Positions 1-14,315 of a DNA stretch of 14,467 nucleotides are shown piece after piece (the stretch's first letter is position 1; the number at the start of each line of letters is the position of its first letter). This DNA comes from Tidjanibacter sp. GTDB taxonomy: Bacteria > Bacteroidota > Bacteroidia > Bacteroidales > Rikenellaceae. Under the pieces are notes generated by a model that was not told the origin of the DNA, searched no databases, and saw nothing but the letters and a program-made list of their open reading frames with translations. The stretch lies in contig JAFNVE010000042.1 of assembly GCA_017379955.1 (NCBI GenBank), forward strand, positions 1-14,467. Reading direction: 5' to 3'. The position numbers and the translations under genes are program-made.

Positions 1-933
1 ATAGCCCTCATCGAGAGTCATCTTAACCAGAGCAATCTGGATGAAGTTACTTGAATTAACACCAATCAGGTAACCCTCAACGAGTACATTGGCATTGTTC
101 TCAAAGCCCTCAACAAGCGCATCGGGAGTGTAGGAGAAACTACCCTTAGCCGACGAGCCGTGTACGTTGAAGTTGTAGTAGTTGTAGCCCTTGCCCGAAT
201 CCGAGAAGGTGTAAACACCTGCCATCTTCACATACTTAGCAACCACGTTCTCTTTGTATGCGGTAAACTCCTCGCCACCAACCTCTTCGGGAGTAGGAGC
301 CCAAGCCGAGTCGGTGCCGGTCTTCTCTACAACAACACCGGTCTTGTCAATCTGCTTCAAACCTGCATACTCACCAATAGCACCCTTAACGGTAGCCTTG
401 TCGCCAATAGCAACGGTAGGCTCATCGCCAAGGAATACCACGATAGCACCGGTATTGTCAACCAACACAAAGCTCTGAGTGGTTACAGCACCAACAGTAC
501 CCTTCAAGGTAACCTGCGCGCCCTTATCCATAGCCAAAGCGTCAGCAATAGGAGTTGCGCCCTCGCCCTCCTGAGCTACGTTGATGATGATAGGATCGGT
601 CATAGCGGGCGACGAGATGGTCAGCTGTGCGCTACGAGGACCGCCCTCATTTGCGGTTGCGGTAACATTAACAGTGGTTCTCTTCTCTGCGCCGGTCTTG
701 TTGTCGTCCGATGCGGGCGAAGCAACCAACCAGGTATCAGATGCGGTGATAGTCCACGAACGGTTAGCATCGATATCAAAAGTTACGCTACCACCATCCT
801 TGGTAAAGCTAATGTTACGATTTCCCACTGTAAGGTAGGGATTCGAGTAGGTAGGGTCGTCATCGTTACACGACACCATCACCATAGCCAACGGAAGCAC
901 GAAGGCCAGGAGTTTTCTGAACGAAAATTTCAT
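1..933 (-). CDS. BACON-domain surface lipoprotein (C-terminus cut by window edge)
   Basis: This is an exported lipoprotein of unknown ligand; the reading frame is open to base 1, so 311 residues are visible and the end is missing. Residues 1-21 form a signal peptide (FRKLLAFVLPLAMVMVS) and Cys22 is the lipidation site of the lipobox MVSC. It is followed by N-D-D-D, resembling the acidic lipoprotein export signal that sends Bacteroidetes lipoproteins to the cell surface. Residues about 33-123 match a BACON domain: a GGSVTF strand, two Trp (W60, W68) and the terminal IIINVAQEGE strand. Residues about 130-196 look like an OB-fold beta barrel (VTLKGTV, SFVLVDNTGAIVVF, ATVKGAIG), and 223-305 look like a second one (VKMAGVYTFSD, NVLVEGYLIG). 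BACON domains are thought to bind carbohydrate or mucin; a role here is inference. The domain calls come from reading alone. Confidence 0.85.
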   Translation of the reverse strand, partial: MKFSFRKLLAFVLPLAMVMVSCNDDDPTYSNPYLTVGNRNISFTKDGGSVTFDIDANRSWTITASDTWLVASPASDDNKTGAEKRTTVNVTATANEGGPRSAQLTISSPAMTDPIIINVAQEGEGATPIADALAMDKGAQVTLKGTVGAVTTQSFVLVDNTGAIVVFLGDEPTVAIGDKATVKGAIGEYAGLKQIDKTGVVVEKTGTDSAWAPTPEEVGGEEFTAYKENVVAKYVKMAGVYTFSDSGKGYNYYNFNVHGSSAKGSFSYTPDALVEGFENNANVLVEGYLIGVNSSNFIQIALVKMTLDEGY

Positions 934-1101: not shown

Positions 1102-1130
1102 AAGGGTTATATTTGCATTATTAAACCCTT
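1102..1130. promoter_or_regulatory. Promoter -7 box inside a 7-bp inverted repeat, upstream of the exporter operon
   Basis: TATATTTG at 1108-1115 is an exact TAnnTTTG -7 element, 40 bases before the start codon at 1156. No clear -33 TTTG sits at the expected 19-20 base distance (bases near 1084-1088 read TTATA), which suggests a weak or activator-dependent promoter. The perfect inverted repeat AAGGGTT (1102-1108) / AACCCTT (1124-1130), with a 15-base spacer, encloses the -7 box and probable start site, as expected for an operator. The promoter element is seen; the operator role is inference. Confidence 0.55.
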
Positions 1131-1155: not shown

Positions 1156-2868
1156 ATGGGCATCAGAGAGGCATACAGGCTTATCTCACCAACGCACCGC
1201 AAGAGACTTCCTGCGGTGGTTGTGGCGAGTATCGTGGCGGCACTGCTCGACTTGGTCGGCATTGCAGCACTTATCTCTGTGTTGCTGCTCGTGCTCGACG
1301 AGGAGGCGGTGGTGGCTCACCCTGCCATCGGCGCCGTTTATGATTGGTGCGGTTTCACCTCTACGGGGTCGTTTGTGATAGCCGTAGCACTGCTTGTGCT
1401 TGGGGTTATCATCATCAAGAGCTTCCTTGCGGTGGTTATCGGCGACCGTCTGCACCGCTACTCCATCAGCCTCTACCACGACCTGTCGCGCCGTATGTTC
1501 AACAACTACTTAGGCAGAGGGTTGCTCTTCATCCGCGCACACAACACCACGACTCTTGTCAACAATGTAAACTCGCTCTGCTACCGTTTTGCGCTCTATG
1601 TGGTTGGCACACTGCTCACTATACTCACCGAGGCGATACTATTAGTTGTTCTGCTGGGTGCTCTCACAATCTACAACCCGACCATTATGGCACTTGCAGC
1701 GGCAGTCTTCATCCCGACCGCCCTCGTCTACTCACGAGTGGTGCGCAAGCGTATGATTGAGAACGGCACAGGCGAGAATCGAGAGCAGGTGGCGCAAAAC
1801 AAGGCTATGTTCGAGACCCTGCGCGGCTATGGCGATATGATCATCGGCAACGCCCGCCCCTATGTCAGTCGCCGCTTTGCCGACAACCTCCAAAGACTCG
1901 GCAACTACTCCATAAAGGCCAACCGTATGCGCACCATTTCGCGTTACACCACCGAGTTATCGCTCGTTGCGGCAGTGGTGCTTATCATCACCGTGGGCCT
2001 TGCTACGGGTAGCAATCTGGGCGACTTGAAGATTGTGCTCGGCATTTTCGCAATGGCGGCCTATCGTATGATTCCCGCAATCAACCGCATACTCGCCTCG
2101 TGGACCGAGTACAAACGACACGCCTACGTTATCGAAACTCTCACCACCGAACTTGCTGATGCAGAGAGTATTGCAACCGACGACACCACCGAACGACTCC
2201 CCTTCGAGCGCGAGATAAAACTCGAAGGCGTTACCTTCGGTTACTCCGACGAAGCAGAGCCCGTCATCAAAAACCTCTCGCTCACCATCGGCAAGGGCGA
2301 GCGCATCGGCATCAAGGGCCCATCGGGTGCAGGCAAGAGCACTCTGTTCAACATCATTGCCGCCCTTATCGAGCCGCAGAGTGGCACGCTGAGTGTTGAT
2401 GGAGTGGAGATTACGGCAGATAATTGTCGCAAGTGGCAGAATAATATAGCCTATGTTTCGCAGGACCTCTTCCTGCCCGACCAATCGATAGCAGAAAATG
2501 TCGCCTTTGGTGTTGAGCCATCGAAGATTGACCGCGCGCGTCTGGCCGAGGCTCTCCGTGCGGCATCGCTTGACGAACTTGTAGCATCGCTTCCCGAGGG
2601 GGCAGACACAATAACGGGCGAGGCTGGTTGTCGTCTATCGGGCGGACAGCGTCAGCGCATCGGCATTGCCCGTGCACTCTACAAGCAGGCATCGGTGCTG
2701 CTATTTGACGAGGCGACCTCCTCACTCGACCATCAGACGGCCGAGGAGATTGTGGAGAGCATAGAGCGATTGTCGGCAGCCGACAGTTCGCTGACAATAC
2801 TTTTCATCTCGCACAACGACCAGACACTCGACTTCTGCGAGCGCATATTTAACCTTGATGCACAGTAA
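1156..2868 (+). CDS. ABC exporter, fused membrane and ATPase domains
   Basis: A 570-residue half-transporter, expected to act as a homodimer that exports a substrate across the inner membrane using ATP. Residues about 15-310 form the transmembrane domain with six likely helices (about 18-46, 72-95, 145-170, 175-192, 262-283, 292-308). The nucleotide-binding domain follows: Walker A GPSGAGKST 388-396, Q-loop Q436, signature LSGGQ 494-498, Walker B VLLFDEA 514-520 and H-loop H553. All catalytic motifs are intact. There is no N-terminal C39 peptidase domain, so this exporter does not cut leader peptides itself. It is first in a tight operon; the peptidase gene starts 3 bases after its stop. By sequence alone it could export lipid, peptide or glycan; the neighbours favour a peptide. 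The start ATG follows an A-rich stretch with no Shine-Dalgarno sequence, normal for this phylum. Confidence 0.92.
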   Translation: MGIREAYRLISPTHRKRLPAVVVASIVAALLDLVGIAALISVLLLVLDEEAVVAHPAIGAVYDWCGFTSTGSFVIAVALLVLGVIIIKSFLAVVIGDRLHRYSISLYHDLSRRMFNNYLGRGLLFIRAHNTTTLVNNVNSLCYRFALYVVGTLLTILTEAILLVVLLGALTIYNPTIMALAAAVFIPTALVYSRVVRKRMIENGTGENREQVAQNKAMFETLRGYGDMIIGNARPYVSRRFADNLQRLGNYSIKANRMRTISRYTTELSLVAAVVLIITVGLATGSNLGDLKIVLGIFAMAAYRMIPAINRILASWTEYKRHAYVIETLTTELADAESIATDDTTERLPFEREIKLEGVTFGYSDEAEPVIKNLSLTIGKGERIGIKGPSGAGKSTLFNIIAALIEPQSGTLSVDGVEITADNCRKWQNNIAYVSQDLFLPDQSIAENVAFGVEPSKIDRARLAEALRAASLDELVASLPEGADTITGEAGCRLSGGQRQRIGIARALYKQASVLLFDEATSSLDHQTAEEIVESIERLSAADSSLTILFISHNDQTLDFCERIFNLDAQ

Positions 2869-2871
2869 GTT

Positions 2872-3345
2872 ATGAGCCTCAACACAAAACAGATAACCAT
2901 CAACAACGACTTCTTCTTCCAATCGGTGGAGGAGATGTTGGAGCAGGGGCTCTCGGTCGATATCAAGGTCAAGGGACTCAGTATGCGCCCATTTCTGCGT
3001 AGCGAGGTGGATAGTGCAAAGTTGGTGAAGGTGAGTGCTGAGGAGTTGGTGCGCGGGGATGTGGTACTCTTTCGCAACCACGGCCACCACACACTCCACC
3101 GCTACTATGGCACACGAGAGGGAAAACTTATCTTCAAAGGCGACGGAAATTGCCGCCTGACGGAGTTGGTAGAGCCTGCCGATATTGTTGCCAGAGTGGT
3201 GAGCATAATGCGCCCCGACGGAACGGTAACAGACTATGGCACAAAGGATTGGCAGAGAAAATCCCGCCGCAGTCTGTGGTGCAAAGCACTTCGCACACCC
3301 ATATTTATTGCAAAGCAAATAGTAAAGAAAATCATACGAAGATGA
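2872..3345 (+). CDS. S24/S26-family peptidase, soluble, Ser-His type
   Basis: A 157-residue signal-peptidase-fold serine protease. The nucleophile box is GLSMRPFL (35-42) with Ser37. GDVVLFRN (62-69) is the following conserved strand. LHRYYG (75-80) puts His76 where bacterial signal peptidase I has its catalytic Lys, and FKGDGN (88-93) matches the KGDxN box. This is the Ser-His arrangement known from the ER/archaeal/SipW-like branch. Unusually there is no N-terminal transmembrane anchor; residues 1-34 are hydrophilic. The C-terminus (about 137-157) is strongly basic with a short hydrophobic run and could be amphipathic and touch the membrane. It lies between the exporter and a PqqD-like gene and overlaps the latter by 4 bases (ATGA), so translation is probably coupled. 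A role in removing the leader of an exported peptide is inference. It could also be an S24-like self-cleaving regulator, but it lacks a DNA-binding domain. Confidence 0.8.
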   Translation: MSLNTKQITINNDFFFQSVEEMLEQGLSVDIKVKGLSMRPFLRSEVDSAKLVKVSAEELVRGDVVLFRNHGHHTLHRYYGTREGKLIFKGDGNCRLTELVEPADIVARVVSIMRPDGTVTDYGTKDWQRKSRRSLWCKALRTPIFIAKQIVKKIIRR

Positions 3346-3611
3346 GAATCAAGAGTGAGTACAAAATCCGCAAAATAGCGGGTGAAAATGTAATTGTAGC
3401 GGCAGGTGCTACCAATGTAAACACAACATCCATTATCTCCTTCAACTCCACCAGCGTAGAGTTGTGGAACGCACTCTCGGGCAGAGAGTTTGAGGTGGCC
3501 GATGTTGTGGCTATCATCATGGGCGACTACGGCCAGAGCGAGGAGGTTGCCTCGCGTGATGCAGCAGCCTGGGTTGAGAAGTTGCGCGAAGCAAAACTCA
3601 TTGAGGAATAA
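3342..3611 (+). CDS. PqqD-like small protein (RiPP recognition element fold)
   Basis: An 89-residue protein resembling the PqqD family, whose winged-helix fold binds leader peptides of ribosomally made peptides (the RRE of lasso, PQQ and sactipeptide systems). The visible pattern fits: an N-terminal beta section (EYKIRKIAGENVIVA, then TSIISFNS), helix one around STSVELWNAL (37-45), a central helix EVADVVAIIM (51-60), and a C-terminal helix DAAAWVEKLREAKLIEE (73-89). The start at 3342 is chosen because ATGA overlaps the stop of the peptidase gene and because it gives the standard PqqD length of about 90 residues; a longer reading from 3150 would lie almost wholly inside the peptidase gene in another frame. 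The kinase gene follows after 6 bases. What peptide it would bind is unknown; no precursor gene is visible nearby. Confidence 0.78.
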   Translation: MRIKSEYKIRKIAGENVIVAAGATNVNTTSIISFNSTSVELWNALSGREFEVADVVAIIMGDYGQSEEVASRDAAAWVEKLREAKLIEE

Positions 3612-3617
3612 GGATTT

Positions 3618-4511
3618 ATGGTAAGATTCAGCATTGCCGACCACATCATCGAGTGGCAGGGCGAGGGCGTGAAAGAGTTGGCCGACAAGACCCCAAACTA
3701 CCCCCGTTTCTACACCACCGATAGCGACGCACGCCCACGCATGCGCCTCTGTTTCGATGGCGAGGTGACACCTCCCGCCACCGAGCCACTCCTCACGCAC
3801 GACTACGACCTGGCGGAGGGGCGTTGTACACTGCGCTACTATGAGGAGTGCTACCTGCTCACCCTCTGGTCGGGCGATGAGCGTTTCTCGGCAACCCTGC
3901 TCTGCCCCACTGCGGAGGGCGCAGAGAGCGAGCCGCTCTACACCTACCACACCAACTTCCCCACCTCCGCCCCCGAGTGGCGATACCTGCTCGACCACCT
4001 GATGGTCTTTGCCTACTCGCTCGCCACACTCAACGCGCGCACCCTGCTCATCCACTCCTCGACTATCGTTCACACTGAGCGCGGAGCGATGTTTCTCGGC
4101 GAGTCGGGCACAGGTAAGTCGACACACACCCGCCTGTGGCTCAAACACATAGAGGATTGCCGCTTGCTCAACGACGACGGCCCTATCATCCGCACCGACC
4201 GCCCCACTCCTCGCGTCTATGGCTCACCGTGGAGCGGCAAGACACACTGCTACAACAATCAGTCGGTGGAGCTTGCTGCAATGGTGCGACTGCGACAAGC
4301 ACCCTACAACCGCATCACACGCCAGTCGACAATCACCGCCTTCGGTGCACTGCTCCCATCCTGCCTCCCCACACTCCAAAAGCGCGAGCGCGACCTTGAC
4401 GAGATCTGCACTACCCTCTCGGAGTTGCTGTCGAAAGTGCCTATCTACCTGTTGGAGTGCCTTCCCGACGAGGCGGCAGCCCACACTTCGCACGACGCTA
4501 TTTTCCAATAG
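3618..4511 (+). CDS. HprK-like P-loop kinase (HPr kinase C-domain homologue)
   Basis: A 297-residue protein whose C-terminal half resembles the HPr kinase/phosphorylase and PEP-carboxykinase-like P-loop fold. It has HSSTIVH (146-152), Walker A GESGTGKST (161-169), an acidic LLNDDGP (183-189) probably for Mg-ATP, and YGSPWSGKTHCYNN (201-214). The first 120 residues form a beta-rich domain without the usual HprK N-terminal domain, and no HPr gene is nearby, so classical carbon catabolite control is unlikely. HprK homologues occur in some lasso peptide clusters, where they phosphorylate the precursor. By analogy this enzyme may phosphorylate a peptide or small metabolite; that is inference. It is last in the four-gene operon, and a hairpin terminator begins 35 bases after its stop. 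Confidence 0.78.
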   Translation: MVRFSIADHIIEWQGEGVKELADKTPNYPRFYTTDSDARPRMRLCFDGEVTPPATEPLLTHDYDLAEGRCTLRYYEECYLLTLWSGDERFSATLLCPTAEGAESEPLYTYHTNFPTSAPEWRYLLDHLMVFAYSLATLNARTLLIHSSTIVHTERGAMFLGESGTGKSTHTRLWLKHIEDCRLLNDDGPIIRTDRPTPRVYGSPWSGKTHCYNNQSVELAAMVRLRQAPYNRITRQSTITAFGALLPSCLPTLQKRERDLDEICTTLSELLSKVPIYLLECLPDEAAAHTSHDAIFQ

Positions 4512-4546
4512 CCACTCCCCGCAACGACATCTAAGCACAAAAAAAA

Positions 4547-4570
4547 GCCCGACCACTAATGTAGTCGGGC
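4547..4570. terminator. Intrinsic terminator between convergent genes
   Basis: GCCCGACCAC-TAAT-GTAGTCGGGC forms a 10-bp stem with one C/A mismatch and a four-base loop. Eight A residues (4539-4546) precede it, giving a U8 tract on the minus-strand transcript. The plus-strand tract (TTCCCTATTT) is poorer. It should stop the acyl-CoA ligase transcript strongly and the exporter operon more weakly. Confidence 0.8.
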
Positions 4571-4592
4571 TTCCCTATTTGTTATGAAAAAC

Positions 4593-4623: not shown

Positions 4624-6300
4624 CTACTCTGCAAGTTTTGCCGCATCGGGGTAGAGATAGCGACGGATACTGCGCTTAGGAGTCTTCGAGAACTCCTCGG
4701 TGCAGAGTTTAATCTCGCTCACCTTCTCGTATGGGGCAACCAGAGTATTTAATTTTGCAAGGTTTGCCTGCATCAGTTCTTTAACATCTGCGGGCGAAAG
4801 TTTATTTGTGCGAACAAAATCCGGATCTGCCACAACAAGTGCAGTCATACGACCACCCTTCTCATAGACAAGGCTCTCCAATACACCTGTCAGGGCGTTG
4901 AGCTTTGCCTCAATCTCCTCGGGATAGATATTCTGACCATTAGCGGTAAGAATCATAGTCTTGCTACGGCCACGGATATAGATAGTGCCGTCGGGGTCGG
5001 CGATACCAACATCGCCTGTGTGCAACCAGCCCTCCTTGTCGAATACAGCATTGGTAGCCTCCTCGTTCTTGTAGTAGCCGAGCATCACATTTTCGCCACG
5101 CACGCAAATCTCGCCGGGGATATTCTGAGCATCGGGCGAGTCGATACGCACCTCCATACCGGGCAGAATCTTACCACACGAGGTAAGTTTGTACTGACGC
5201 CAAGGGGTGTAACTAATCAGAGGAGCGCACTCGGTCATACCGTAACCAACAGTGAAGGGGAAGCGTACCTTTTTGAGCAACTTCTCCACATCGGGAGCCA
5301 CAGCAGCACCACCCATATTCACCTCCGAAAGGCAACCACCAAACGAAGCGAGCATAGTATCGCGCACCTTATTATAAATAATGCGGTTCAGACCGGGGAT
5401 AGCGGTCAGAATCTTCATCACAGGCTTGTTGAGTTTGGGCATAACCTGCTTGCGAACTACCTTCTCCATCACCAAAGGTACGGTGCAGAGCAGGCTGGGA
5501 CGCACCTCCTTCATCGCCTTGATAAGGACAGCAGGTGCGGGAGTCTTGCCGAGGAGGTGAATCTCCGAGCCGGCAGCCAGCGGTGTGAGCATATCAAATG
5601 CACAACCATAGGCGTGAGCCAGAGGCAACAGACCCAACACACGCGAGCCACGAACGTGGAACTTGTGGTCGAGAGCGAACTTTACATTGGCACTCAGGTT
5701 GTTGATGGTGAGCATTACGCCCTTGCTGTAACCTGTTGTACCTGAGGTATAACTGATGATTGCAAGTTTCTCGTTGGGCACCTCGGGATAATTGATATCG
5801 GCAGTGGTAAAGCCGTTGGGATAACGCTCAGCAAAAATCTCGTTGCGCGCACTCTGGAAATCGGTCACCACACTACCCTCACGCTCATAGGAGCAGTGGA
5901 AGTCATCGAGGTCGATAGCCGCCTCAATCTTCTTGCAAGCCGCCATATCGAGATTTTCGAGGATATTGGCAGTCACAAACAGAAGACGCGAGTCGGAGTG
6001 GTCGATGATATTTGTCATATCAACGGGGTTGAAGTCTTGGAGCACAGGTACCAAAACAGCACCGTATGTGATTGTTGCCACATAGGTCATCACCCAACGG
6101 GGGTTGTTACGACCAATAAGGGCAATCTTATCGTCGGGCTGAATACCAACCTTCTCAAAGAGGAGGTGCAGTTTGGCAATCTCGGTAGCGAGCTCCATAT
6201 AGCTCATCTTCTCGCCACTGAAATAGTCATCAAGAGCGGGCAACTCAGCATTTGCTGCAAAGCTCTCGGCATACATCTTAACCAGATTCTCTTTTATCAT
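4624..6300 (-). CDS. Long-chain fatty acid--CoA ligase-like AMP-binding enzyme
   Basis: A 558-residue member of the adenylate-forming superfamily, expected to activate a fatty acid with ATP and join it to CoA. Motifs in order: P-loop YTSGTTGYSKG (184-194), LLPLAHAYG (224-232), YGMTE (353-357), HTGDVG (427-432), GRSKTMILTANGQNIYPEEIE (443-463) and a C-terminal KTPKRSIRRYLY (539-550). Length and motifs fit the FadD15-like long-chain group. The position where most relatives have the catalytic lysine before the IxR segment appears to be Ser here, with Lys542 two residues earlier. The start at 6300 (MIKENLVKMY) is preferred over an in-frame ATG at 6357, because a good promoter lies at 6329-6358, inside that longer version. 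It is transcribed alone. The exact acyl substrate cannot be read from sequence. Confidence 0.88.
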   Translation of the reverse strand: MIKENLVKMYAESFAANAELPALDDYFSGEKMSYMELATEIAKLHLLFEKVGIQPDDKIALIGRNNPRWVMTYVATITYGAVLVPVLQDFNPVDMTNIIDHSDSRLLFVTANILENLDMAACKKIEAAIDLDDFHCSYEREGSVVTDFQSARNEIFAERYPNGFTTADINYPEVPNEKLAIISYTSGTTGYSKGVMLTINNLSANVKFALDHKFHVRGSRVLGLLPLAHAYGCAFDMLTPLAAGSEIHLLGKTPAPAVLIKAMKEVRPSLLCTVPLVMEKVVRKQVMPKLNKPVMKILTAIPGLNRIIYNKVRDTMLASFGGCLSEVNMGGAAVAPDVEKLLKKVRFPFTVGYGMTECAPLISYTPWRQYKLTSCGKILPGMEVRIDSPDAQNIPGEICVRGENVMLGYYKNEEATNAVFDKEGWLHTGDVGIADPDGTIYIRGRSKTMILTANGQNIYPEEIEAKLNALTGVLESLVYEKGGRMTALVVADPDFVRTNKLSPADVKELMQANLAKLNTLVAPYEKVSEIKLCTEEFSKTPKRSIRRYLYPDAAKLAE

Positions 6301-7659: not shown

Positions 7660-8787
7660 TTACAAACGGCGAGCGAGTTTCACCACCATCTCCGCCTTCC
7701 ACTCTGCAAATGTTCCATCAAGAATCCTGCGGCGAGCCTCCTTAACCAGCCACAGATAGAAACCAATGTTGTGCAGCGAGGCAATCTGTGCCGCCATCAT
7801 CTCGCCCGAGATATTGAGGTGGCGAAGATATGCCTTCGAGTAGAGTGTGTCGACAAAGGCCGTGCCCGCAGGGTCGATGGGCGAAAAATCGTTTTTCCAC
7901 TTCTCGTTGCGGATATTGATGATACCCTCACTCGTAAAGAGCATACCGTTGCGGCCGTTACGAGTAGGCATCACGCAGTCGAACATATCAACTCCGCGCT
8001 CGATATTTTCAAGCAGGTTGACGGGAGTACCAACACCCATCAAATAGCGTGGACGGTCGGTGGGGAGTACATCGTTGACAATCTCCACCATCTCGTACAT
8101 CTTCTCGGTAGGCTCGCCAACTGCCAGACCACCAATAGCATAGCCATCGGCATTGAACTGCTGCACAAACTCCGCCGAGCGCACTCTGAGTTCGGGATAG
8201 ACACAACCCTGCACAATCGGGAAGAGCGACTGATGATAGCCATACTTTGGCTCTGTGGAGTGGTAGCGATTGAAGCAACGCTCCAACCAGCGATGGGTCA
8301 AATCGAGCGAGCGGGCAGCATAGCGATAGTCCGAGTCACCGGGAGGACACTCATCAAACGCCATCATAATATCCGCACCGATACTGCGCTGAGTATCAAT
8401 CACATTTTCGGGTGTAAAGAGATGTTTCGAGCCGTCGATATGCGAACTGAAACGGCAACCCTCCTCAGTCAGTTTACGGCAAGCGGCAAGCGAGAAGACC
8501 TGAAAGCCACCGCTATCGGTCAGCACGGGTCGTTGCCAGGTACTAAAACCGTGAATACCGCCGGCCGCTTCCAAGACCTGCGTTCCGGGGCGGAGGTAGA
8601 GGTGGTAGGTATTGGCAAGGATAATCTGTGCGCCAACATCCTCCAAGTCGCGGTGGAAAATTCCCTTCACACTTGCAGCAGTGCCTACGGGCATAAAAAT
8701 AGGGGTCTCGATTACTCCATTGTCGGTAGTAATCAGACCTGCTCTCGCCCTCGATGAGGGGTCGGTATGTAATAATTCGAACTTCAT
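7660..8787 (-). CDS. tgt: Queuine tRNA-ribosyltransferase, without the zinc cysteines
   Basis: A 375-residue TIM-barrel enzyme that exchanges guanine 34 in GUN-anticodon tRNAs for the queuosine precursor preQ1. Catalytic motifs are intact: TDSGGFQ (90-96, general acid-base Asp91), QGCVYPELR (193-201), IGGLAVGEP (218-226) and GVDMFDCVMPTRNGRNG (265-281) with the nucleophile Asp270. The C-terminal zinc site is altered. Where E. coli has Cys302, Cys304, Cys307 and His333, this protein has Gly308, Ala310, Asp313 and His339 at identical spacing. The neighbouring YSKAYLRHL segment and the rest are well conserved, so loss of function is unlikely. The start is ATG 8787 (MKFELLHTDP). A GTG at 8796 would overlap the -7 promoter box, and GGAG lies just before the ATG. 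It leads an operon with the LPS permease. Confidence 0.95.
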   Translation of the reverse strand: MKFELLHTDPSSRARAGLITTDNGVIETPIFMPVGTAASVKGIFHRDLEDVGAQIILANTYHLYLRPGTQVLEAAGGIHGFSTWQRPVLTDSGGFQVFSLAACRKLTEEGCRFSSHIDGSKHLFTPENVIDTQRSIGADIMMAFDECPPGDSDYRYAARSLDLTHRWLERCFNRYHSTEPKYGYHQSLFPIVQGCVYPELRVRSAEFVQQFNADGYAIGGLAVGEPTEKMYEMVEIVNDVLPTDRPRYLMGVGTPVNLLENIERGVDMFDCVMPTRNGRNGMLFTSEGIINIRNEKWKNDFSPIDPAGTAFVDTLYSKAYLRHLNISGEMMAAQIASLHNIGFYLWLVKEARRRILDGTFAEWKAEMVVKLARRL

Positions 8788-8868: not shown

Positions 8869-10038
8869 ATGGAGTCATTTATCGCCGCCATTGAGTGGCT
8901 TACAGAATATCTTGGAGAGTGGGGATTGCCTATTGCATTGGTTGCCCTGGTGACCTTTGTGGCACAGATTATCTACTATGCTCGTCGCTATGGGCGCATT
9001 GCGACCTATCGTCGCCGTCGCCATACCACACAGGGCGAAGAGCCACCAGCAGTGTCGGTCATCATCCCCTTTTTCGACCCCGATTTCAGTTATTTTGAGC
9101 GAGTTATACCTAAGCTGCAACAGCAGACCCACCCCCGATTTGAGGTTATCTTTGTGGTAAACACCCCCGACGAGGAGTTCAACGCACAACTCAGCACCAT
9201 CTGCGACAACGATTATCGTCTGTCGGTGACCAAGATGGTCTACAACCCCCGCATCGGTATTGGCAACAAACTTGCCCTCAATGTCGGCATCAAGGCCGCT
9301 CACTACGACAACGTCATCCTCTCCACCCAGAGTGCAGAGCCCGCCTCGCCTCGCTGGCTGGAACTTATGGCTCGCGGCTTTGAGAGCGCAGAGGTGGTGA
9401 TTGGCTATTGCGGCATCGTACCTGGCAAGGGTCTGGCAAACAAACTTATCCGTTGCGACAACCTCTACGCCTCAGCACGCTGGCTCTCTTCGGCTATGCG
9501 CCACAACCCATATCGCGGCTCAATCCACAACCTCGGTATGCGCAAGTCGCTCTATTTCAGCACAGGAGGCTTCAACCACCTCAGCCTCAACATGGGCGAG
9601 GACGACCTCTATGTAATGACTATTGCTTCGGCCGAGAACACAACAGTTGTAGCAGGCCCATCGTCTGTGGTGCGTCGCAAGGCGTGGGGCGGTATTGGTT
9701 GGTGGCAGCAGGAGCGCAAGCGTCTGCGCCAAACTTTTAAACATTATGCGCCTGCACTTAGGATTGGCATCGCAATAGAGTATTGGGTCAGAACCATATT
9801 CTTTGCGGCAATCATCTTCCTGCTTATCACCGCACCTCTCTACGGCAAAATCTTTGCTGCCGCACTATTGCTGATTCGTGCAAACTGTCTGATGTTCCAA
9901 ACGCACCGCTTGGGCAGACGACTTGGTGAGCGTGGTCTGATGTGGATTTATCTCCTCTACGACCTCTTCTCCCCCATCTACGAAACACAACTCGCACTCC
10001 TGTCGATAAAACTGCGCAAACGTAAAAGATGGAAATAG
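8869..10038 (+). CDS. Membrane-bound family-2 glycosyltransferase, atypical active site
   Basis: A 389-residue GT-A-fold protein with an N-terminal membrane helix (about 18-38), a cytosolic catalytic domain (60-290) opening with SVIIPFFD (63-70), and C-terminal membrane helices (about 306-324 and 326-342). The catalytic-base motif GEDDLYV (243-249) and the WWQQERKR segment (278-285, like the QxxRW region) are present. The metal- and nucleotide-sugar-binding positions are not: the usual LLFTDADCxP is VILSTQSAEP (149-158), replacing both Asp of DxD with Thr153 and Ser155, and the earlier VVND is VVNT (96-99). It may use a different donor or metal arrangement, or be non-catalytic. It heads a plus-strand gene run, and its last 10 bases overlap the sigma factor gene. 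The acceptor is unknown; envelope glycans are the usual target of such proteins. Confidence 0.8.
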   Translation: MESFIAAIEWLTEYLGEWGLPIALVALVTFVAQIIYYARRYGRIATYRRRRHTTQGEEPPAVSVIIPFFDPDFSYFERVIPKLQQQTHPRFEVIFVVNTPDEEFNAQLSTICDNDYRLSVTKMVYNPRIGIGNKLALNVGIKAAHYDNVILSTQSAEPASPRWLELMARGFESAEVVIGYCGIVPGKGLANKLIRCDNLYASARWLSSAMRHNPYRGSIHNLGMRKSLYFSTGGFNHLSLNMGEDDLYVMTIASAENTTVVAGPSSVVRRKAWGGIGWWQQERKRLRQTFKHYAPALRIGIAIEYWVRTIFFAAIIFLLITAPLYGKIFAAALLLIRANCLMFQTHRLGRRLGERGLMWIYLLYDLFSPIYETQLALLSIKLRKRKRWK

Positions 10039-10607
10039 GCAGTTACATAATCCTCACCGACCAGCAGTTGGTATCTCTCATATCGGATGGCGACTCCTCA
10101 GCCTTTGAGGTGCTCTTCAACCGATACAAAGATGCCATCTACAAATTCTATGTGCAGCGTTGCGGTGGGGGTAGTAACGAAGATATCGAGGACCTGATGC
10201 AGGAGACCTTCGTAAAAGTCTTTCTCAACATCGACAAATATAACCCTGCCTACACCTTTGGGCAGTGGATTTACACCATAGCGCGCAACACGCTGATTGA
10301 TTGGTCACGCAAGCGTCACGACGAACTCTCCATCGACTCCCTGCGCGGGACGAGCGATGTGATGCAGTCGGCATCGACAGAGATTCTGCCCGACGAGCGC
10401 ATCATCAACTCACAGCGTCGCACCGAACTTGAACGCCACCTTTCGCAGATGGACGAGCGTTATCGCAAACTCATCGAACTCCGCTTCTTCAAGGAGTACT
10501 CATACGAGGAGATTGCAGAGGCTCTCTCTCTGCCACTCGGCACGGTCAAGACCCAGATTCATCGTGCGCGCGAAAGGATTTGCAAACTGATTACAACCGA
10601 ACTCTAA
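10029..10607 (+). CDS. ECF-type RNA polymerase sigma factor
   Basis: A 192-residue sigma-70 family protein with only regions 2 and 4. Region 2 spans about 23-97, with DLMQETFVKVFLNIDKY (55-71) and the -10-binding FGQWIYTIARNTLIDWSRKR (77-96). Region 4 spans about 130-187, ending in the helix-turn-helix YSYEEIAEALSLPLGTVKTQIHRARERI (157-184). The linker (98-128) is longer than in minimal ECF factors. No anti-sigma factor gene (FecR-like or zinc type) lies next to it; the neighbours are a glycosyltransferase, overlapping upstream, and mqnE, 3 bases downstream. It may therefore be controlled by expression rather than by a linked anti-sigma factor. Its target promoters cannot be told from this window. 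Confidence 0.92.
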   Translation: MEIGSYIILTDQQLVSLISDGDSSAFEVLFNRYKDAIYKFYVQRCGGGSNEDIEDLMQETFVKVFLNIDKYNPAYTFGQWIYTIARNTLIDWSRKRHDELSIDSLRGTSDVMQSASTEILPDERIINSQRRTELERHLSQMDERYRKLIELRFFKEYSYEEIAEALSLPLGTVKTQIHRARERICKLITTEL

Positions 10608-10610
10608 GTT

Positions 10611-11678
10611 ATGGAAAAGATATACAACAAAATAGAACTTGGTGAGCGCATCACCACCGACGAGGCACTCAGACTTATGGAGGAGGCACCCTTGGAGGAG
10701 TTATCCCGACTCGCCACACTATGTCGTGTGCGCACCTGCGGCGATGCACTCTACTACAACCGCAACTTCCACATCGAGCCGACAAACATCTGTCGTTTCA
10801 ACTGCCTCTTCTGCTCCTACCGTCGTCCGCGCGGCTCGGCTGAGGCGTGGGACTACTCGCTCGACGAGATTGAGCAGATAGCACTCTCTAAGGCAGATAG
10901 CGGAGCCACAGAGGTTCACATTGTTGGCGGTGTCCATCCCGACCACGACCTTGACCACTATATCGAGATGATTTCGCGCATCAAGCGTGCCGTGCCGGGT
11001 GCTACTGTCAAGGCATTTACCGCTATCGAACTCGCCTATATGATTGAGAAAGCGGGACTTACCTACACCGAGGGTCTTACCCGCCTGCGTGAGGCAGGTA
11101 TGGAGGCTATCCCTGGCGGTGGTGCCGAGATTTTCGACGAGGAGCTTCGCGCCAAGATTTGCCCCGACAAGGGCAGCACAGCGCAATGGTTAGCACTCCA
11201 CGAGGCGGCACACTCAATCGGCATACCCACCAACGCCACAATCCTCTACGGACATATGGAGAGTCGTGCTCAGCGCATCGACCACCTCAACCGTCTGCGC
11301 GAGTTGCAGGACCGCACCGGTGGCTTCAACGCCTTCATCCCCCTCAAATATCGTAGTGCGGGCAACAAAATGGAGTCGCTGGGTGAGGTGAGCCTCGAAG
11401 AGGACTTGCGCACCTTGGCACTCTCGCGCATCTTCCTCGACAACATCCCCCACATCAAGGCATATTGGGTGATGTATGGCAAGCAGACGACAGAACAGGC
11501 TCTCGCCTATGGTGCCGACGATATTGACGGCACAATCGACGACAGCACAAAGATATATTCGATGGCAGGTGCTGAGGATCAGCGTCCGCGTCTGACTATT
11601 GCCGAGATTGAGGCGATGGCGGCTCGCAATGGTCGCACACCCATCGAGCGTGACACCTTCTACAACCCTGTAAAATAA
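10611..11678 (+). CDS. mqnE: Aminofutalosine synthase, menaquinone (futalosine pathway)
   Basis: A 355-residue radical SAM enzyme that joins 3-[(1-carboxyvinyl)oxy]benzoate to the SAM-derived adenosyl group, making 6-amino-6-deoxyfutalosine in menaquinone synthesis. The Fe-S cluster motif CRFNCLFC gives Cys61, Cys65 and Cys68. Further family-typical stretches are EVHIVGGVHPD (101-111), VKAFTAIEL (127-135), EAIPGGGAEIFDEELRAKICP (161-181), NATILYGHMES (208-218) and GGFNAFIPLKYRSAGN (237-252). These read as MqnE rather than MqnC (which has a different GG-HP surround), though ThiH and CofH are more distant relatives. It starts 3 bases after the sigma factor stop. Other futalosine genes (mqnA, B, C, D) are not in the window, so they must be elsewhere if the pathway is complete. 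Confidence 0.88.
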   Translation: MEKIYNKIELGERITTDEALRLMEEAPLEELSRLATLCRVRTCGDALYYNRNFHIEPTNICRFNCLFCSYRRPRGSAEAWDYSLDEIEQIALSKADSGATEVHIVGGVHPDHDLDHYIEMISRIKRAVPGATVKAFTAIELAYMIEKAGLTYTEGLTRLREAGMEAIPGGGAEIFDEELRAKICPDKGSTAQWLALHEAAHSIGIPTNATILYGHMESRAQRIDHLNRLRELQDRTGGFNAFIPLKYRSAGNKMESLGEVSLEEDLRTLALSRIFLDNIPHIKAYWVMYGKQTTEQALAYGADDIDGTIDDSTKIYSMAGAEDQRPRLTIAEIEAMAARNGRTPIERDTFYNPVK

Positions 11679-11692
11679 AACAAAGAAAAGAT

Positions 11693-12691
11693 ATGGAACA
11701 GAGAAAACCTACCCCCAAACGCCCCGCGGCAAACAAGCCTACCTCACAAAAGGCGAGCGCACCCGCTGAGCGCACAATGAAGCAGACCGTCATCCGCCAC
11801 CTGGTATTGGCTGCGAGCCTACTGATTATCGGTGTCTTTGTGGTACAGGTACTTCTTGGCATCTTCACCCGCCACGGTCACTACCGCGAGGTGCCCGAGA
11901 TGGTGGGGCTTTTGCTTGACGACGCTATGGCAGTAGCCGAGAGCAATGGTAACCTGCGTATCGAGGTGAGCGATTCACTCTTCGTGCCTATCTATGATGG
12001 TGGCGTGGTCTTGGAGCAGAATCCTAAGGCGGGCACTGAGGTAAAGAAGGGTCGTCGCGTCTTTGTAACCGTCAACTCCTACCGTCAGAAGATGGTCGAG
12101 ATACCCTACGTCACGGGCTACTCCCTGCGTCAGGCAAAGAACAACCTCGAAAATGTAGGTCTTGAAATAGAGCGACTCGAATATGTAGAGGATATCGCCG
12201 CAAACTACATCCTTTCGCAAAAGTTCAATGGTCGCACCATCGAGGAGGGTGACAAGGTGGAGGCCGAGGTTGGCTCGGGCATTACCCTTGTTGTAGGCCG
12301 TGGCGAAGATGAGGAGAAGAGCCGCGTATCGGTGCCCCGTCTGGTGGGTATGACCCTCTACGAGGCAAAGAGCCGCCTTTGGGACTCGGGTCTGAACGTG
12401 GGCAGAATTACCTCCGACGAGGGTGTCAACCAACTCAACGAGCGCAACGCACGCGTATATGTGCAGTCGCCCGCGCAGGGTTCGGTGGCTAATCTCGGTA
12501 GCAGCGTAGCACTCTCGCTCTCGCTTGATGATGAGCGCATTAACCGTGGTGTGACAGCCGCAGATGAGGATGCTCGTCGCCGCGAGGAGGCAGAGGCTAA
12601 GGCACGCGAAGAGGCTGCCGAGGCGGAGGCACGAGAGAAACTGATGGAGGCTGCCGGCATGCCTACCGACTACGAAGAAGATTTTTTCTGA
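11693..12691 (+). CDS. Membrane protein with three PASTA domains
   Basis: A 332-residue bitopic protein: a basic, Pro/Lys-rich cytoplasmic tail (1-32), one transmembrane helix (about 34-58) and three PASTA repeats outside (about 64-129, 134-204, 211-279), each with the V/IP-x-V/L-x-G opening and the xQxPxxG turn or a variant. The C-terminus (288-322) is an Ala/Glu/Arg-rich probable coiled coil, followed by an acidic tail. PASTA domains bind peptidoglycan stem peptides or beta-lactams in serine/threonine kinases and PBPs. Here there is no kinase or transpeptidase domain, which is usual for the Bacteroidetes stand-alone form. In this phylum such genes often lie beside an RluD-type gene, as here, sometimes with D-Ala-D-Ala ligase, which is absent. 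A structural role in cell-wall sensing is inference. Confidence 0.88.
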   Translation: MEQRKPTPKRPAANKPTSQKASAPAERTMKQTVIRHLVLAASLLIIGVFVVQVLLGIFTRHGHYREVPEMVGLLLDDAMAVAESNGNLRIEVSDSLFVPIYDGGVVLEQNPKAGTEVKKGRRVFVTVNSYRQKMVEIPYVTGYSLRQAKNNLENVGLEIERLEYVEDIAANYILSQKFNGRTIEEGDKVEAEVGSGITLVVGRGEDEEKSRVSVPRLVGMTLYEAKSRLWDSGLNVGRITSDEGVNQLNERNARVYVQSPAQGSVANLGSSVALSLSLDDERINRGVTAADEDARRREEAEAKAREEAAEAEAREKLMEAAGMPTDYEEDFF

Positions 12692-12714
12692 TTTTGGTCG
12701 TGCAAGTGATACCG

Positions 12715-12751
12715 TCAGGAAGGTAGAATCAGGAAGGTAGAATCAGGAAGG
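12715..12751 (+). repeat. 14-bp tandem repeat, 2.6 copies, ahead of rluD
   Basis: The unit TCAGGAAGGTAGAA occurs at 12715-12728 and 12729-12742, and its first nine bases recur at 12743-12751. Copies are identical. It fills much of the 80-base gap between the PASTA gene and rluD. Each copy carries the purine run AGGAAGG, which resembles a Shine-Dalgarno sequence, but the last is 20 bases from the ATG at 12772, too far for direct use. Confidence 0.85.
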
Positions 12752-12771
12752 AAAAACATATAGAGAAAAGA

Positions 12772-13857
12772 ATGGAGTATAAAGAGATATTGGAGGAGCA
12801 GGCAGTAGCACTTACCGATCCCGAACTCGAAGAGGGCGAGGAGCAGGATGAGTTATACGAGCACTTCTCGGTAACGGTCGACAAGGGGCAATCGATGTTG
12901 CGCATCGATAAATACCTGGTAGACCGATTGGAGCACTGCTCGCGCTCGCGTGTGCAGGCAGCAGCCGATAGTGGCTCTATACTTGTCAATGGCAAGGCTG
13001 TCAAGTCGAGTTATAAGGTAAAGCCGCTCGACCGCATCTCTATTGTAATGCCCTACCCCAAGCGTGAGATTGAGATTATCCCGCAGAACATACCTCTCGA
13101 AATACTCTATGAGGACGACAGCCTGCTGATTGTCAACAAACACGCAGGTATGGTCGTTCACCCCGGCCACGGCAACTATGAGGGTACGCTTGTCAATGCG
13201 CTGGCTTGGCACTTGAAGGATGCACCCGGATTTGCCGATGGCGATATGAGGGCAGGACTTGTACACCGTATCGACAAGGACACCTCGGGACTGCTGGTGG
13301 TTGCCAAGAACGAGAAGGCACACGCACACCTCGCACGCCAATTCTTCGACCACTCCATCACCCGCCGCTACCTCGCACTTGTCTGGGGCGACTTCGCTGA
13401 GGACGAGGGCAGGATTGAGGGCCACATCGGCCGTAGCCTGAAAGATAGGTTGAAGATGGCGGTATTCCCCGACGGCAGTCAGGGCAAGGAGGCAGTGACT
13501 CACTGGCGCGTGGTGAAACGCTTTGGCTATGTGACACTTGTCGAGTGCCGCCTCGAGACGGGCCGCACACACCAGATTAGGGTACATATGGAGTATATCG
13601 GCCATCCGCTATTCAACGATGCGCGCTATGGTGGCGACAGAATTTTGAAGGGTACGACCTTTGCTAAGTATAAGCAGTTTGTGGAAAACTGCTTCGAATT
13701 GTTGCCCCGACAGGCACTCCACGCACGCTGCCTCGGCTTTGTACATCCCACAACGCACAAGGAGATCTACTTTGAGACCCCTCTGCCTGCCGATATGGAG
13801 GCCGCAATCGCCAAGTGGGAGAACTACACCTCTGCCCGCCCATTGGAGGAGGAGTAG
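12772..13857 (+). CDS. rluD: RluA/RluD-family rRNA pseudouridine synthase
   Basis: A 361-residue enzyme converting uridines to pseudouridine; RluD itself modifies helix 69 of 23S rRNA, and the exact target here is inferred from family resemblance. Residues about 43-92 form the S4 RNA-binding domain (LRIDKYLVDRLEHCSRSRVQ, SILVNGKAVKSSYKV). The catalytic domain follows, with HRIDKDTSGLL (165-175; Asp168 is the nucleophile), a YLALVWG strand, the LETGRTHQIRVH motif near 261-272, and NDARYGG. The N-terminal 30 residues form an acidic extension (PELEEGEEQDE). The later insertion with KYKQFVENCFELLPRQALHA is characteristic of this group. It lies 80 bases after the PASTA gene, without a visible promoter or terminator between, and 41 bases before ndk. 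Confidence 0.92.
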   Translation: MEYKEILEEQAVALTDPELEEGEEQDELYEHFSVTVDKGQSMLRIDKYLVDRLEHCSRSRVQAAADSGSILVNGKAVKSSYKVKPLDRISIVMPYPKREIEIIPQNIPLEILYEDDSLLIVNKHAGMVVHPGHGNYEGTLVNALAWHLKDAPGFADGDMRAGLVHRIDKDTSGLLVVAKNEKAHAHLARQFFDHSITRRYLALVWGDFAEDEGRIEGHIGRSLKDRLKMAVFPDGSQGKEAVTHWRVVKRFGYVTLVECRLETGRTHQIRVHMEYIGHPLFNDARYGGDRILKGTTFAKYKQFVENCFELLPRQALHARCLGFVHPTTHKEIYFETPLPADMEAAIAKWENYTSARPLEEE

Positions 13858-13898
13858 CCTACACTCGCCCAAGACCTAACTACCTAAAAACTAATACT

Positions 13899-14315
13899 AT
13901 GAGCAGAACTTTTACCATTATTAAACCCGACTCAATACGAAAAGCGGCCGAGGGAAAGATTATCGACATCCTTCGCTCTCGCGATTTCCGCATTGCCGCT
14001 ATGCGTGCCACACGCCTCTCACAGGAGAAGGCTGGCGAATTCTACGCAATCCACAAGGGGAAGGTGTTCTTCGACGAACTGATGGAGTATATGACCTCGG
14101 GGCCCGTTATCGTAGCAGTCTTGGAGCGCGACGACGCGGTGGCTGAGTTGCGCAGAGTAGTTGGCGCGACCAACCCCCAAAAGGCCGAGCCCGGCACTAT
14201 CCGTGCTATGTTCGGCAAGGATGTAACCGAGAACGCCATCCACGCCTCCGACAGCGACGAAAATGCAAGGATAGAAGCCGCACATTTCTTCTCGGAAGAA
14301 GATTATTGCTTGTAA
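13899..14315 (+). CDS. ndk: Nucleoside diphosphate kinase
   Basis: A 138-residue enzyme that transfers the gamma phosphate of ATP to nucleoside diphosphates through a phosphohistidine. Key parts are present: TIIKPDSI (6-13, with Lys9), the FFDELMEYMTSGPVIVAVLE core (57-76), GATNPQKAEPGTIR (89-102) and NAIHASDS (112-119) with catalytic His115. Ala replaces the common Gly after the histidine, a conservative change. Length is normal. The start ATG at 13899 (MSRTFTIIKP) is chosen over an in-frame ATG at 13815, which would add 28 unrelated residues overlapping rluD. No promoter motif is visible in the 41-base gap, so co-transcription with rluD is likely, though housekeeping expression from an unseen promoter is possible. 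Confidence 0.95.
   Translation: MSRTFTIIKPDSIRKAAEGKIIDILRSRDFRIAAMRATRLSQEKAGEFYAIHKGKVFFDELMEYMTSGPVIVAVLERDDAVAELRRVVGATNPQKAEPGTIRAMFGKDVTENAIHASDSDENARIEAAHFFSEEDYCL

Follow-up and report, generated by a model that had tools for sequence, protein, structure and literature searches.

The stretch of DNA analysed here (the window) comprises 14,467 nucleotides of Tidjanibacter sp., a member of the Rikenellaceae (contig JAFNVE010000042.1 of assembly GCA_017379955.1), and carries four consecutive genes for an ATP-binding cassette (ABC) exporter, a small peptidase, a PqqD-like protein, and an HprK-like kinase (Table 1). The original prediction, made from the letters of the window alone, had described these as an operon that might modify and export a peptide with its precursor encoded in trans, make a simpler phosphorylated peptide, or handle something else. 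The coordinates of the open reading frames (ORFs) agree with that layout, with gaps of 3 and 6 bases after the first and third ORFs and a 4-base overlap between the second and third. We identified a family of short ORFs that tracks the kinase and PqqD genes through related genomes, and we put the probability at roughly 0.8 that the operon serves as one shared machine that matures and exports this multigene family of ribosomal peptides of ∼35 to 60 residues encoded elsewhere.

The exporter matches the Pfam families ABC_tran (1.2e-34) and ABC_membrane (2.6e-9); no C39 peptidase domain is among its Pfam matches and the protein starts with the membrane domain, in line with the predicted exporter without a peptidase domain of its own. 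Its best NCBIfam models, PglK (258 of 1000 bits) and MsbA (255.7 of 602 bits), are both under cut-off, it likewise scores far under the cut-offs of the peptide-exporter models, and the best 60 of 300 matches in the PDB, which include multidrug exporters, PglK, and MsbA, are not decisive. The PqqD-like protein belongs by sequence to PF05402 (2.7e-12) and is a putative leader-binding domain of the RiPP recognition element (RRE) type, RiPPs being ribosomally synthesized and posttranslationally modified peptides. Calls for the kinase and the peptidase are weak by sequence, and structure models back both. The kinase exceeds the cut-off of no Pfam family and matches the NCBIfam models HprK_rel_A/B and PEPCK weakly; TIGR04352 and TIGR04355 are far under cut-off, and PF07475 is not listed up to E 0.1. 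PF27840 appears in the precomputed annotation of many of the 120 kinase relatives listed, and it did not match four relatives so annotated in the Pfam release used here. With the kinase and PqqD-like proteins as queries, phmmer found nothing in the PDB up to E 1. For the kinase model (predicted local distance difference test, pLDDT, 95.4), HPr kinase/phosphatase and ATP-PEPCK are the best matches, so that the modelled protein has the HprK/PEPCK fold with a P-loop, as foreseen. It shares fold and P-loop with this superfamily; unlike HPr kinase/phosphorylase, it exceeds the cut-off of no curated family, and HPr is not expected to be its substrate.

The peptidase matches Peptidase_S24 (0.0096) and TIGR02228 (1e-4), both under cut-off. 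Its model (pLDDT 82.8) resembles LexA, type I signal peptidase, and SipA, and among relatives Ser37 is kept in 36/36 and both His76 and Arg77 in 37/37. As modelled, the protein is of the S24/S26 fold with a conserved Ser and a candidate general base, which upholds the predicted soluble Ser-His enzyme of the S26 type. Fold and conserved Ser are shared with type I signal peptidases and SipA-like pilus peptidases; unlike these S26 enzymes, the protein is only 157 residues long, conserves His76 where bacterial type I signal peptidases use Lys, and has no N-terminal membrane anchor evident in its sequence.

In our main sample of 200 Rikenellaceae genomes (search family f1), the kinase gene is present in 115, including 21 of the 23 genomes of the window's genus; the nearest kinases, from other Tidjanibacter sp. 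loci, are 91% and 87% identical. Twelve of 20 loci from the genus have the order ABC-S26-PqqD-HprK and three more have it with one gene inserted; the remaining five comprise three that are cut by a contig end or short of a gene call and two with PqqD-HprK. This sharing of the four-gene layout across kinase-bearing genomes of the genus indicates that the arrangement is not due to chance. Three loci of the genus (L045, L047, and L048) encode a protein of 246 to 250 residues between PqqD and HprK, with a membrane-like N terminus read in L047. In the largest other genus, g22, presumably Alistipes, all 14 kinase loci of the main pattern read ABC-HprK-S26, with PqqD elsewhere in the genome; a UvrD/AddA-type helicase gene precedes 12 of them, and the gene for EF-Ts is near 9. 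Housekeeping genes thus tend to stay beside the operon, which does not resemble a mobile cluster. Near the split PqqD gene of g22 (L100–L111), 12 of 13 loci have a TonB receptor gene (∼790 residues) and a gene for a secreted HMA-domain protein (∼100 residues), and a RecQ-type helicase gene frequently lies on the other side (7 of 13 loci, among the neighbours listed); Pfam supplied the names for one such set. No short conserved ORF that could be a precursor was seen among these 13 loci. Across the family, PqqD (PF05402) occurs in 117 genomes, of which 113 also have the kinase; 2 genomes have the kinase only and 4 PqqD only (p 2.6e-48).

The window itself holds no precursor: as the original prediction noted, the plus strand of 934–1155 has no ATG and the operon contains no precursor gene, and a profile search of the window gave no match. 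The precursor family came to light through other Bacteroidales loci. In one (L207), a 45-residue ORF and a lipoprotein gene stand 5′ of HprK-S26-PqqD-NTP_transf_5-ABC on the same strand, and a second (L208) has a 61-residue ORF bearing the same motif; neither ORF matches Pfam or NCBIfam. For the L208 ORF, relatives at E≤1 number 213, of which the best 120 are all at 3.2e-16 or better. A loose regular expression applied to 2.4 Mb of loci gave 91 matches against 46 in reversed sequence and was noisy alone; of its matches, only L207 and L208 were taken further. A profile of 26 peptides (A2), searched in 41 genomes at E≤5, matched 22 of 27 kinase-positive Rikenellaceae genomes, mainly in short frames, and only one of nine kinase-negative ones (G020, inside a frame of 1825 residues). 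From its matches we built the 26-row profile A3 (threshold E≤0.01), whose consensus is YxAPxxExxEVxxExGFAxS followed by a core; across the family the leader is YxAPxxExxEVxxExG[F/I]AxS and the core short and acidic.

A3 peptides occur in 118 of the 200 genomes at 813 places, with a median of 6 and up to 22 per genome, and are found in 113/115 kinase-positive vs. 5/85 kinase-negative genomes (p 6e-47; the genomes are related, so that this and the other p-values overstate independence). Since A3 derives mainly from kinase-positive genomes, we also counted with the 36 family genomes of the A2 search set aside and obtained 86/88 vs. 5/76 (p 1.3e-37). Completeness is 68% and 69% for the two kinase-positive genomes without A3 (G051 and G078). 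Among the five kinase-negative genomes with A3, three (G149, G171, and G175) have PqqD and two (G030 and G109) are 54% and 59% complete. A within-genus contrast is provided by G022 (99% complete) and G090 (85%), in which kinase, PqqD, NTP_transf_5, and precursors were all not found. The window's genome, an assembly of 1.49 Mb that is 77% complete, has three A3 precursors on other contigs. The recurrent short ORF on which the original prediction had staked itself is thus found, in trans and with a YxxP leader.

We examined the anatomy of 47 distinct peptides scoring at least 20 bits, from loci favouring best-scoring matches. The leader ends in a G-[F/I]-A-x-S step with Ala in 40/47 and, two positions on, Ser in 41, Thr in 4, and Ala and Gly in 1 each; this Ser is invariant across the 26 rows of A2. 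Cores past the step have a median of 17 residues (9–37), are net acidic in 47/47, and contain no Cys; 39/47 have a Ser or Thr past the step, and 41/47 peptides have W, F, or Y within the last four residues. The ratio of nonsynonymous to synonymous differences (pN/pS) over 15 overlapping peptide pairs is 0.35, which shows selection on the amino acids, so that the ORFs look coding. A genetically encoded precursor with a conserved leader and a variable core, one mark of a RiPP system, is what the A3 family presents. Scans of 26 family members against Pfam and NCBIfam brought up no convincing match, the best values (0.025 and 0.015) each coming from one member; single A3 members weakly match the Nif11 leader model (0.055) and Herpeto_peptide (0.025), with 25/26 lacking such a match.

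Most precursors are paired with a lipoprotein gene. Among 46 precursors with at least 400 nucleotides of downstream sequence, 41 are followed within 160 nucleotides by an ORF of at least 200 residues (120 if running to the end of the locus), and 40 of these partners have a lipobox pattern, as against 79/656 genes in other loci (p 1e-27 for 40/46); the one other partner, in L211, is the kinase gene. Complete partner lipoproteins span 271 to 2231 residues, and their spacing to the precursor is mostly −4 to 49 nucleotides. Ten were scanned for domains: two contain LRR_5 (one of them also DUF285), one each DUF4465, Mfa_like_1, BACON, and, weakly, DUF4097, and four none. An N-terminal TR...W..D pattern, which is loose and was devised after viewing the sequences, occurs in 31/41 partners vs. 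5/79 other lipoprotein-pattern genes and is fimbrillin-like. In L067 the precursor–lipoprotein pair is convergent to a five-gene set.

So tight a spacing would also suit leader ORFs that regulate how the lipoprotein is translated and are neither matured nor exported, the operon then acting on another substrate. We regard this as very improbable: it leaves the co-occurrence with kinase and PqqD unexplained, the YxxP leader and variable acidic core are precursor-like, the pN/pS value speaks for amino-acid selection, and in L334 the ORF directly precedes the kinase gene with no lipoprotein gene between. L334 and L207 each hold precursor and machine together and so tie the two physically. The L334 genes overlap or stand 6 to 97 bp apart, among flanking genes that, as scanned, encode GH97, a GH109-type protein, APH, DNA polymerase III beta, and isocitrate dehydrogenase; L207 is flanked by genes for LPG_synthase_C, GNAT, CorA, and a tRNA synthetase. 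None of 10 neighbours scanned with Pfam in L334 and L207 is an asparagine-synthetase-like cyclase; whole genomes were not searched for one.

Several variable cores per genome, a dedicated exporter, and one lipoprotein per peptide also recall conventional antimicrobial peptides, with the cotranscribed lipoprotein as immunity protein or receptor. This we consider improbable, in that most bacteriocins are unlike such short and uniformly acidic cores, the lipoproteins are long and differ in their domains, and the operon, being present in nearly every genome of the genus, is unlike mobile bacteriocin loci.

A gene that the original prediction missed, encoding NTP_transf_5 (PF14907), is a fifth co-occurring part of the module, not linked to the operon here. 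It exceeds the cut-off in 104/200 genomes, 100 of which share the kinase, with 15 genomes having the kinase only and 4 NTP_transf_5 only (p 7.6e-35). Five-gene sets are present in other Bacteroidales (L198, L205, and L207), and at the level of the order, NTP_transf_5 is found in 12/16 genomes with A3 peptides vs. 81/279 others (p 3e-4). Two sets of 20 NTP_transf_5 loci were inspected (L124–L143 and L213–L232; 6/40 not anchorable), and 16/17 and 14/17 anchored loci lie next to rml, sugar-transferase, glycosyltransferase, aminotransferase, or Wzz-like genes, the first count being partly circular because the profiles used for annotation derive from the first set; the same neighbours occur at 2/37 kinase loci and 0/12 PqqD loci. 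A precursor beside NTP_transf_5 was sought and discarded, the adjoining genes being of polysaccharide type (rmlA- and rmlC-type by Pfam).

These neighbours raise the alternative that the module serves surface-polysaccharide biogenesis, with the exporter a PglK/MsbA-like flippase, as its best NCBIfam matches would have it, and the peptides glycan acceptors or side pieces. In L074, PqqD-NTP_transf_5-HprK is flanked by a bacterial sugar transferase gene and by Poly_export and Wzz-type genes, and in L208 the same three genes lie behind glycosyltransferase and sugar-transferase genes, in a locus that also has a precursor, both clusters being of exopolysaccharide type; in most genomes, however, exporter, kinase, peptidase, and PqqD are away from polysaccharide genes, the exporter's matches are under cut-off, and the gene 3′ of the precursor is of lipoprotein type in 40/46 cases and not a glycan gene. 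We judge this alternative unlikely. Under the peptide-machine reading, NTP_transf_5 may be placed there by drawing on the same sugar nucleotides, or the peptides may meet the glycan.

The closest known systems are lasso peptide clusters with a kinase and a nucleotidyltransferase (paeninodin and pseudomycoidin), which share a PqqD-like B1 protein or RRE, an HprK-like kinase, an NTP-transferase, an ABC exporter, and an aromatic-xx-Pro motif in the leader. Unlike these, our operon uses an S26-type peptidase, and its precursors are dispersed and paired with lipoproteins. The lasso protease B2 (PF13471), the transglutaminase-like peptidase that the original prediction had found missing, occurs in 0/24 kinase-positive genomes, which sets a lasso cluster aside; the model does pass its cut-off in 28/296 genomes of the phylum. 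Lasso-protease loci of the phylum (L209, L240, L242, and L243) also encode HprK, PqqD, and NTP_transf_5 relatives, and three of the four are matched by the ABC exporter profile as well. In having one enzyme set and many trans-encoded precursor genes, the system is like prochlorosin-type RiPPs, in which one modification enzyme serves many dispersed precursors; enzymes, leaders, chemistry, and the lipoprotein partner differ between the two. As far as the literature was searched, the precursor family, its number, the lipoprotein pairing, and the fifth gene are new: no earlier description of the peptides is among the matches listed, from coverage that excludes most subscription journals, and the words Alistipes, nucleotidyltransferase, and lipoprotein do not occur in the main text of a survey of Bacteroidales RiPPs (PMC10352776).

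The operon would thus work as a RiPP system with dispersed precursors, core modification being predicted from the modelled kinase fold. Direct support comes from the precursor family, its tie to kinase and PqqD, the lipoprotein cassettes, the two all-in-one loci, and the kinase and peptidase folds. All of the biochemistry is inferred, including where the peptide is phosphorylated and cut, as are what the product does and the role of the lipoprotein, and we order the steps by analogy with pseudomycoidin and the RRE literature. The PqqD-like RRE would bind Y-x-[A/S]-P-x-x-E in the leader; RRE groups including PqqD have been assigned W/Y/LxxP/L/I recognition motifs (PMC12710340), and PadeB1 binds its own leader at nanomolar strength (PMC5067487). 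The kinase would then phosphorylate the peptide to phospho-Ser, the best candidate being the Ser/Thr that is nearly invariant at the G-[F/I]-A-x-S step. Where present, the unlinked NTP_transf_5 may build on the phosphate by adding a nucleotide or sugar, in the manner of PsmN in pseudomycoidin; there, a peptide Ser is phosphorylated by PsmK, and one or two hexoses are added by PsmN, possibly via a nucleotidyl step (PMC9266682). The Ser-His peptidase would cut the leader off next to A-x-S, a small-x-small site as for signal peptidases; by its sequence, A-x-S fits such a cut, and the same Ser may alternatively be the phospho-site. Finally, the ABC exporter would move the acidic core out, where it would meet the large surface lipoprotein encoded just 3′. 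More tentatively, this could be a surface-assembly system with several peptide–lipoprotein cassettes per genome, in which one machine phosphorylates, possibly glycosylates, trims, and exports peptides that each become ligand, strand donor, or covalent attachment of their own fimbrillin-like lipoprotein.

Several observations weigh against the peptide-machine reading. The genomes are related, with kinase-positive ones in 8/22 genera and precursor-positive ones in 7/22, and both all-in-one loci come from one family (f70, different genera). G109 has precursors and neither kinase nor PqqD was found in it, which makes it a counter-example unless the genes have dropped out of its assembly; L052 and L053 carry PqqD-HprK without an adjoining exporter and peptidase. 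The 47 peptides are mostly best-scoring matches with close relatives among them; the step lacks Ala in 7/47 and Ser in 6/47, and 8/47 cores have no Ser or Thr past it. The Ser of the step could take the phosphate or belong to the cut site, with no clear case for both roles. In the window's own genome, which is incomplete, NTP_transf_5 was not found, perhaps owing to that incompleteness, and its residence mostly in polysaccharide clusters is not accounted for. At the order level, 16/295 genomes have A3-type peptides and 93 have NTP_transf_5 over cut-off, so that either NTP_transf_5 also serves other systems or the profile misses distant precursors.

Around the operon, the putative promoter element matches TAnnTTTG, the Bacteroidota −7 promoter motif, and a hairpin separates the operon from a converging gene for an AMP-binding enzyme; such hairpins number 5 vs. 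3.0 expected in shuffles, which is statistically weak. Relatives of the divergent BACON-domain lipoprotein gene stand at the corresponding place in 12 loci, window included (cluster C6). The radical SAM gene further along is probably an ordinary menaquinone-type gene outside the peptide system.

Table 1. Features of the window, precursors elsewhere in the same genome, and the two all-in-one loci (aa, amino acids; nt, nucleotides; NTP5, NTP_transf_5; TMD-NBD, transmembrane and nucleotide-binding domains)
Sequence	Feature	Coordinates	Strand	Remarks
Window	BACON-domain lipoprotein gene	1-933	-	divergent to operon; no precursor 5′ of it
Window	TATATTTG, putative -7 promoter element	1108-1115	+	matches TAnnTTTG; 40 nt 5′ of exporter ATG
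Window	ABC exporter	1156-2868	+	570 aa; fused TMD-NBD in one protein
Window	S24/S26-fold peptidase	2872-3345	+	157 aa; Ser37 and His76-Arg77; candidate leader peptidase
Window	PqqD-like RRE	3342-3611	+	89 aa; PF05402; candidate binder of YxxP leader
Window	HprK-like kinase (HPrK/PEPCK superfamily)	3618-4511	+	297 aa; GESGTGKST P-loop, LNDD, GSPWSGK
Window	16-pair hairpin	4541-4576	.	between operon and converging AMP-binding-enzyme gene; terminator-like on - strand
Window	Radical SAM protein	10611-11678		CofH/MqnC C-terminal region
Window genome, C167	Precursor	3464-3586		lipoprotein gene 3′ of it, 592 aa
Window genome, C58	Precursor	8140-8247		lipoprotein gene 3′ of it, 732-746 aa (start uncertain)
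Window genome, C18	Precursor	4937-5032		near contig end
L334	Precursor	14343-14522	-	directly 5′ of kinase gene
L334	HprK	13441-14304	-	
L334	S26	13001-13450	-	
L334	PqqD	12735-13004	-	
L334	NTP5	11619-12728	-	
L334	ABC	9977-11521	-	
L207	Precursor	2292-2429	+	then lipoprotein, HprK, S26, PqqD, NTP5, ABC

With these results, an orphan set of PqqD, kinase, peptidase, and exporter that is common in the Rikenellaceae (115/200) gains a substrate, and the 813 short-gene places are likely precursors of the machine. This suggests that systems with dispersed precursors escape RiPP searches limited to gene clusters. That the peptides so often pair with large lipoproteins hints at a function on the surface facing the host. 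What gut Bacteroidales do with a clusterless phospho-peptide machine becomes a directly testable question; if the surface-assembly reading is true, RiPP logic would here build cell-surface structures, not antibiotics.

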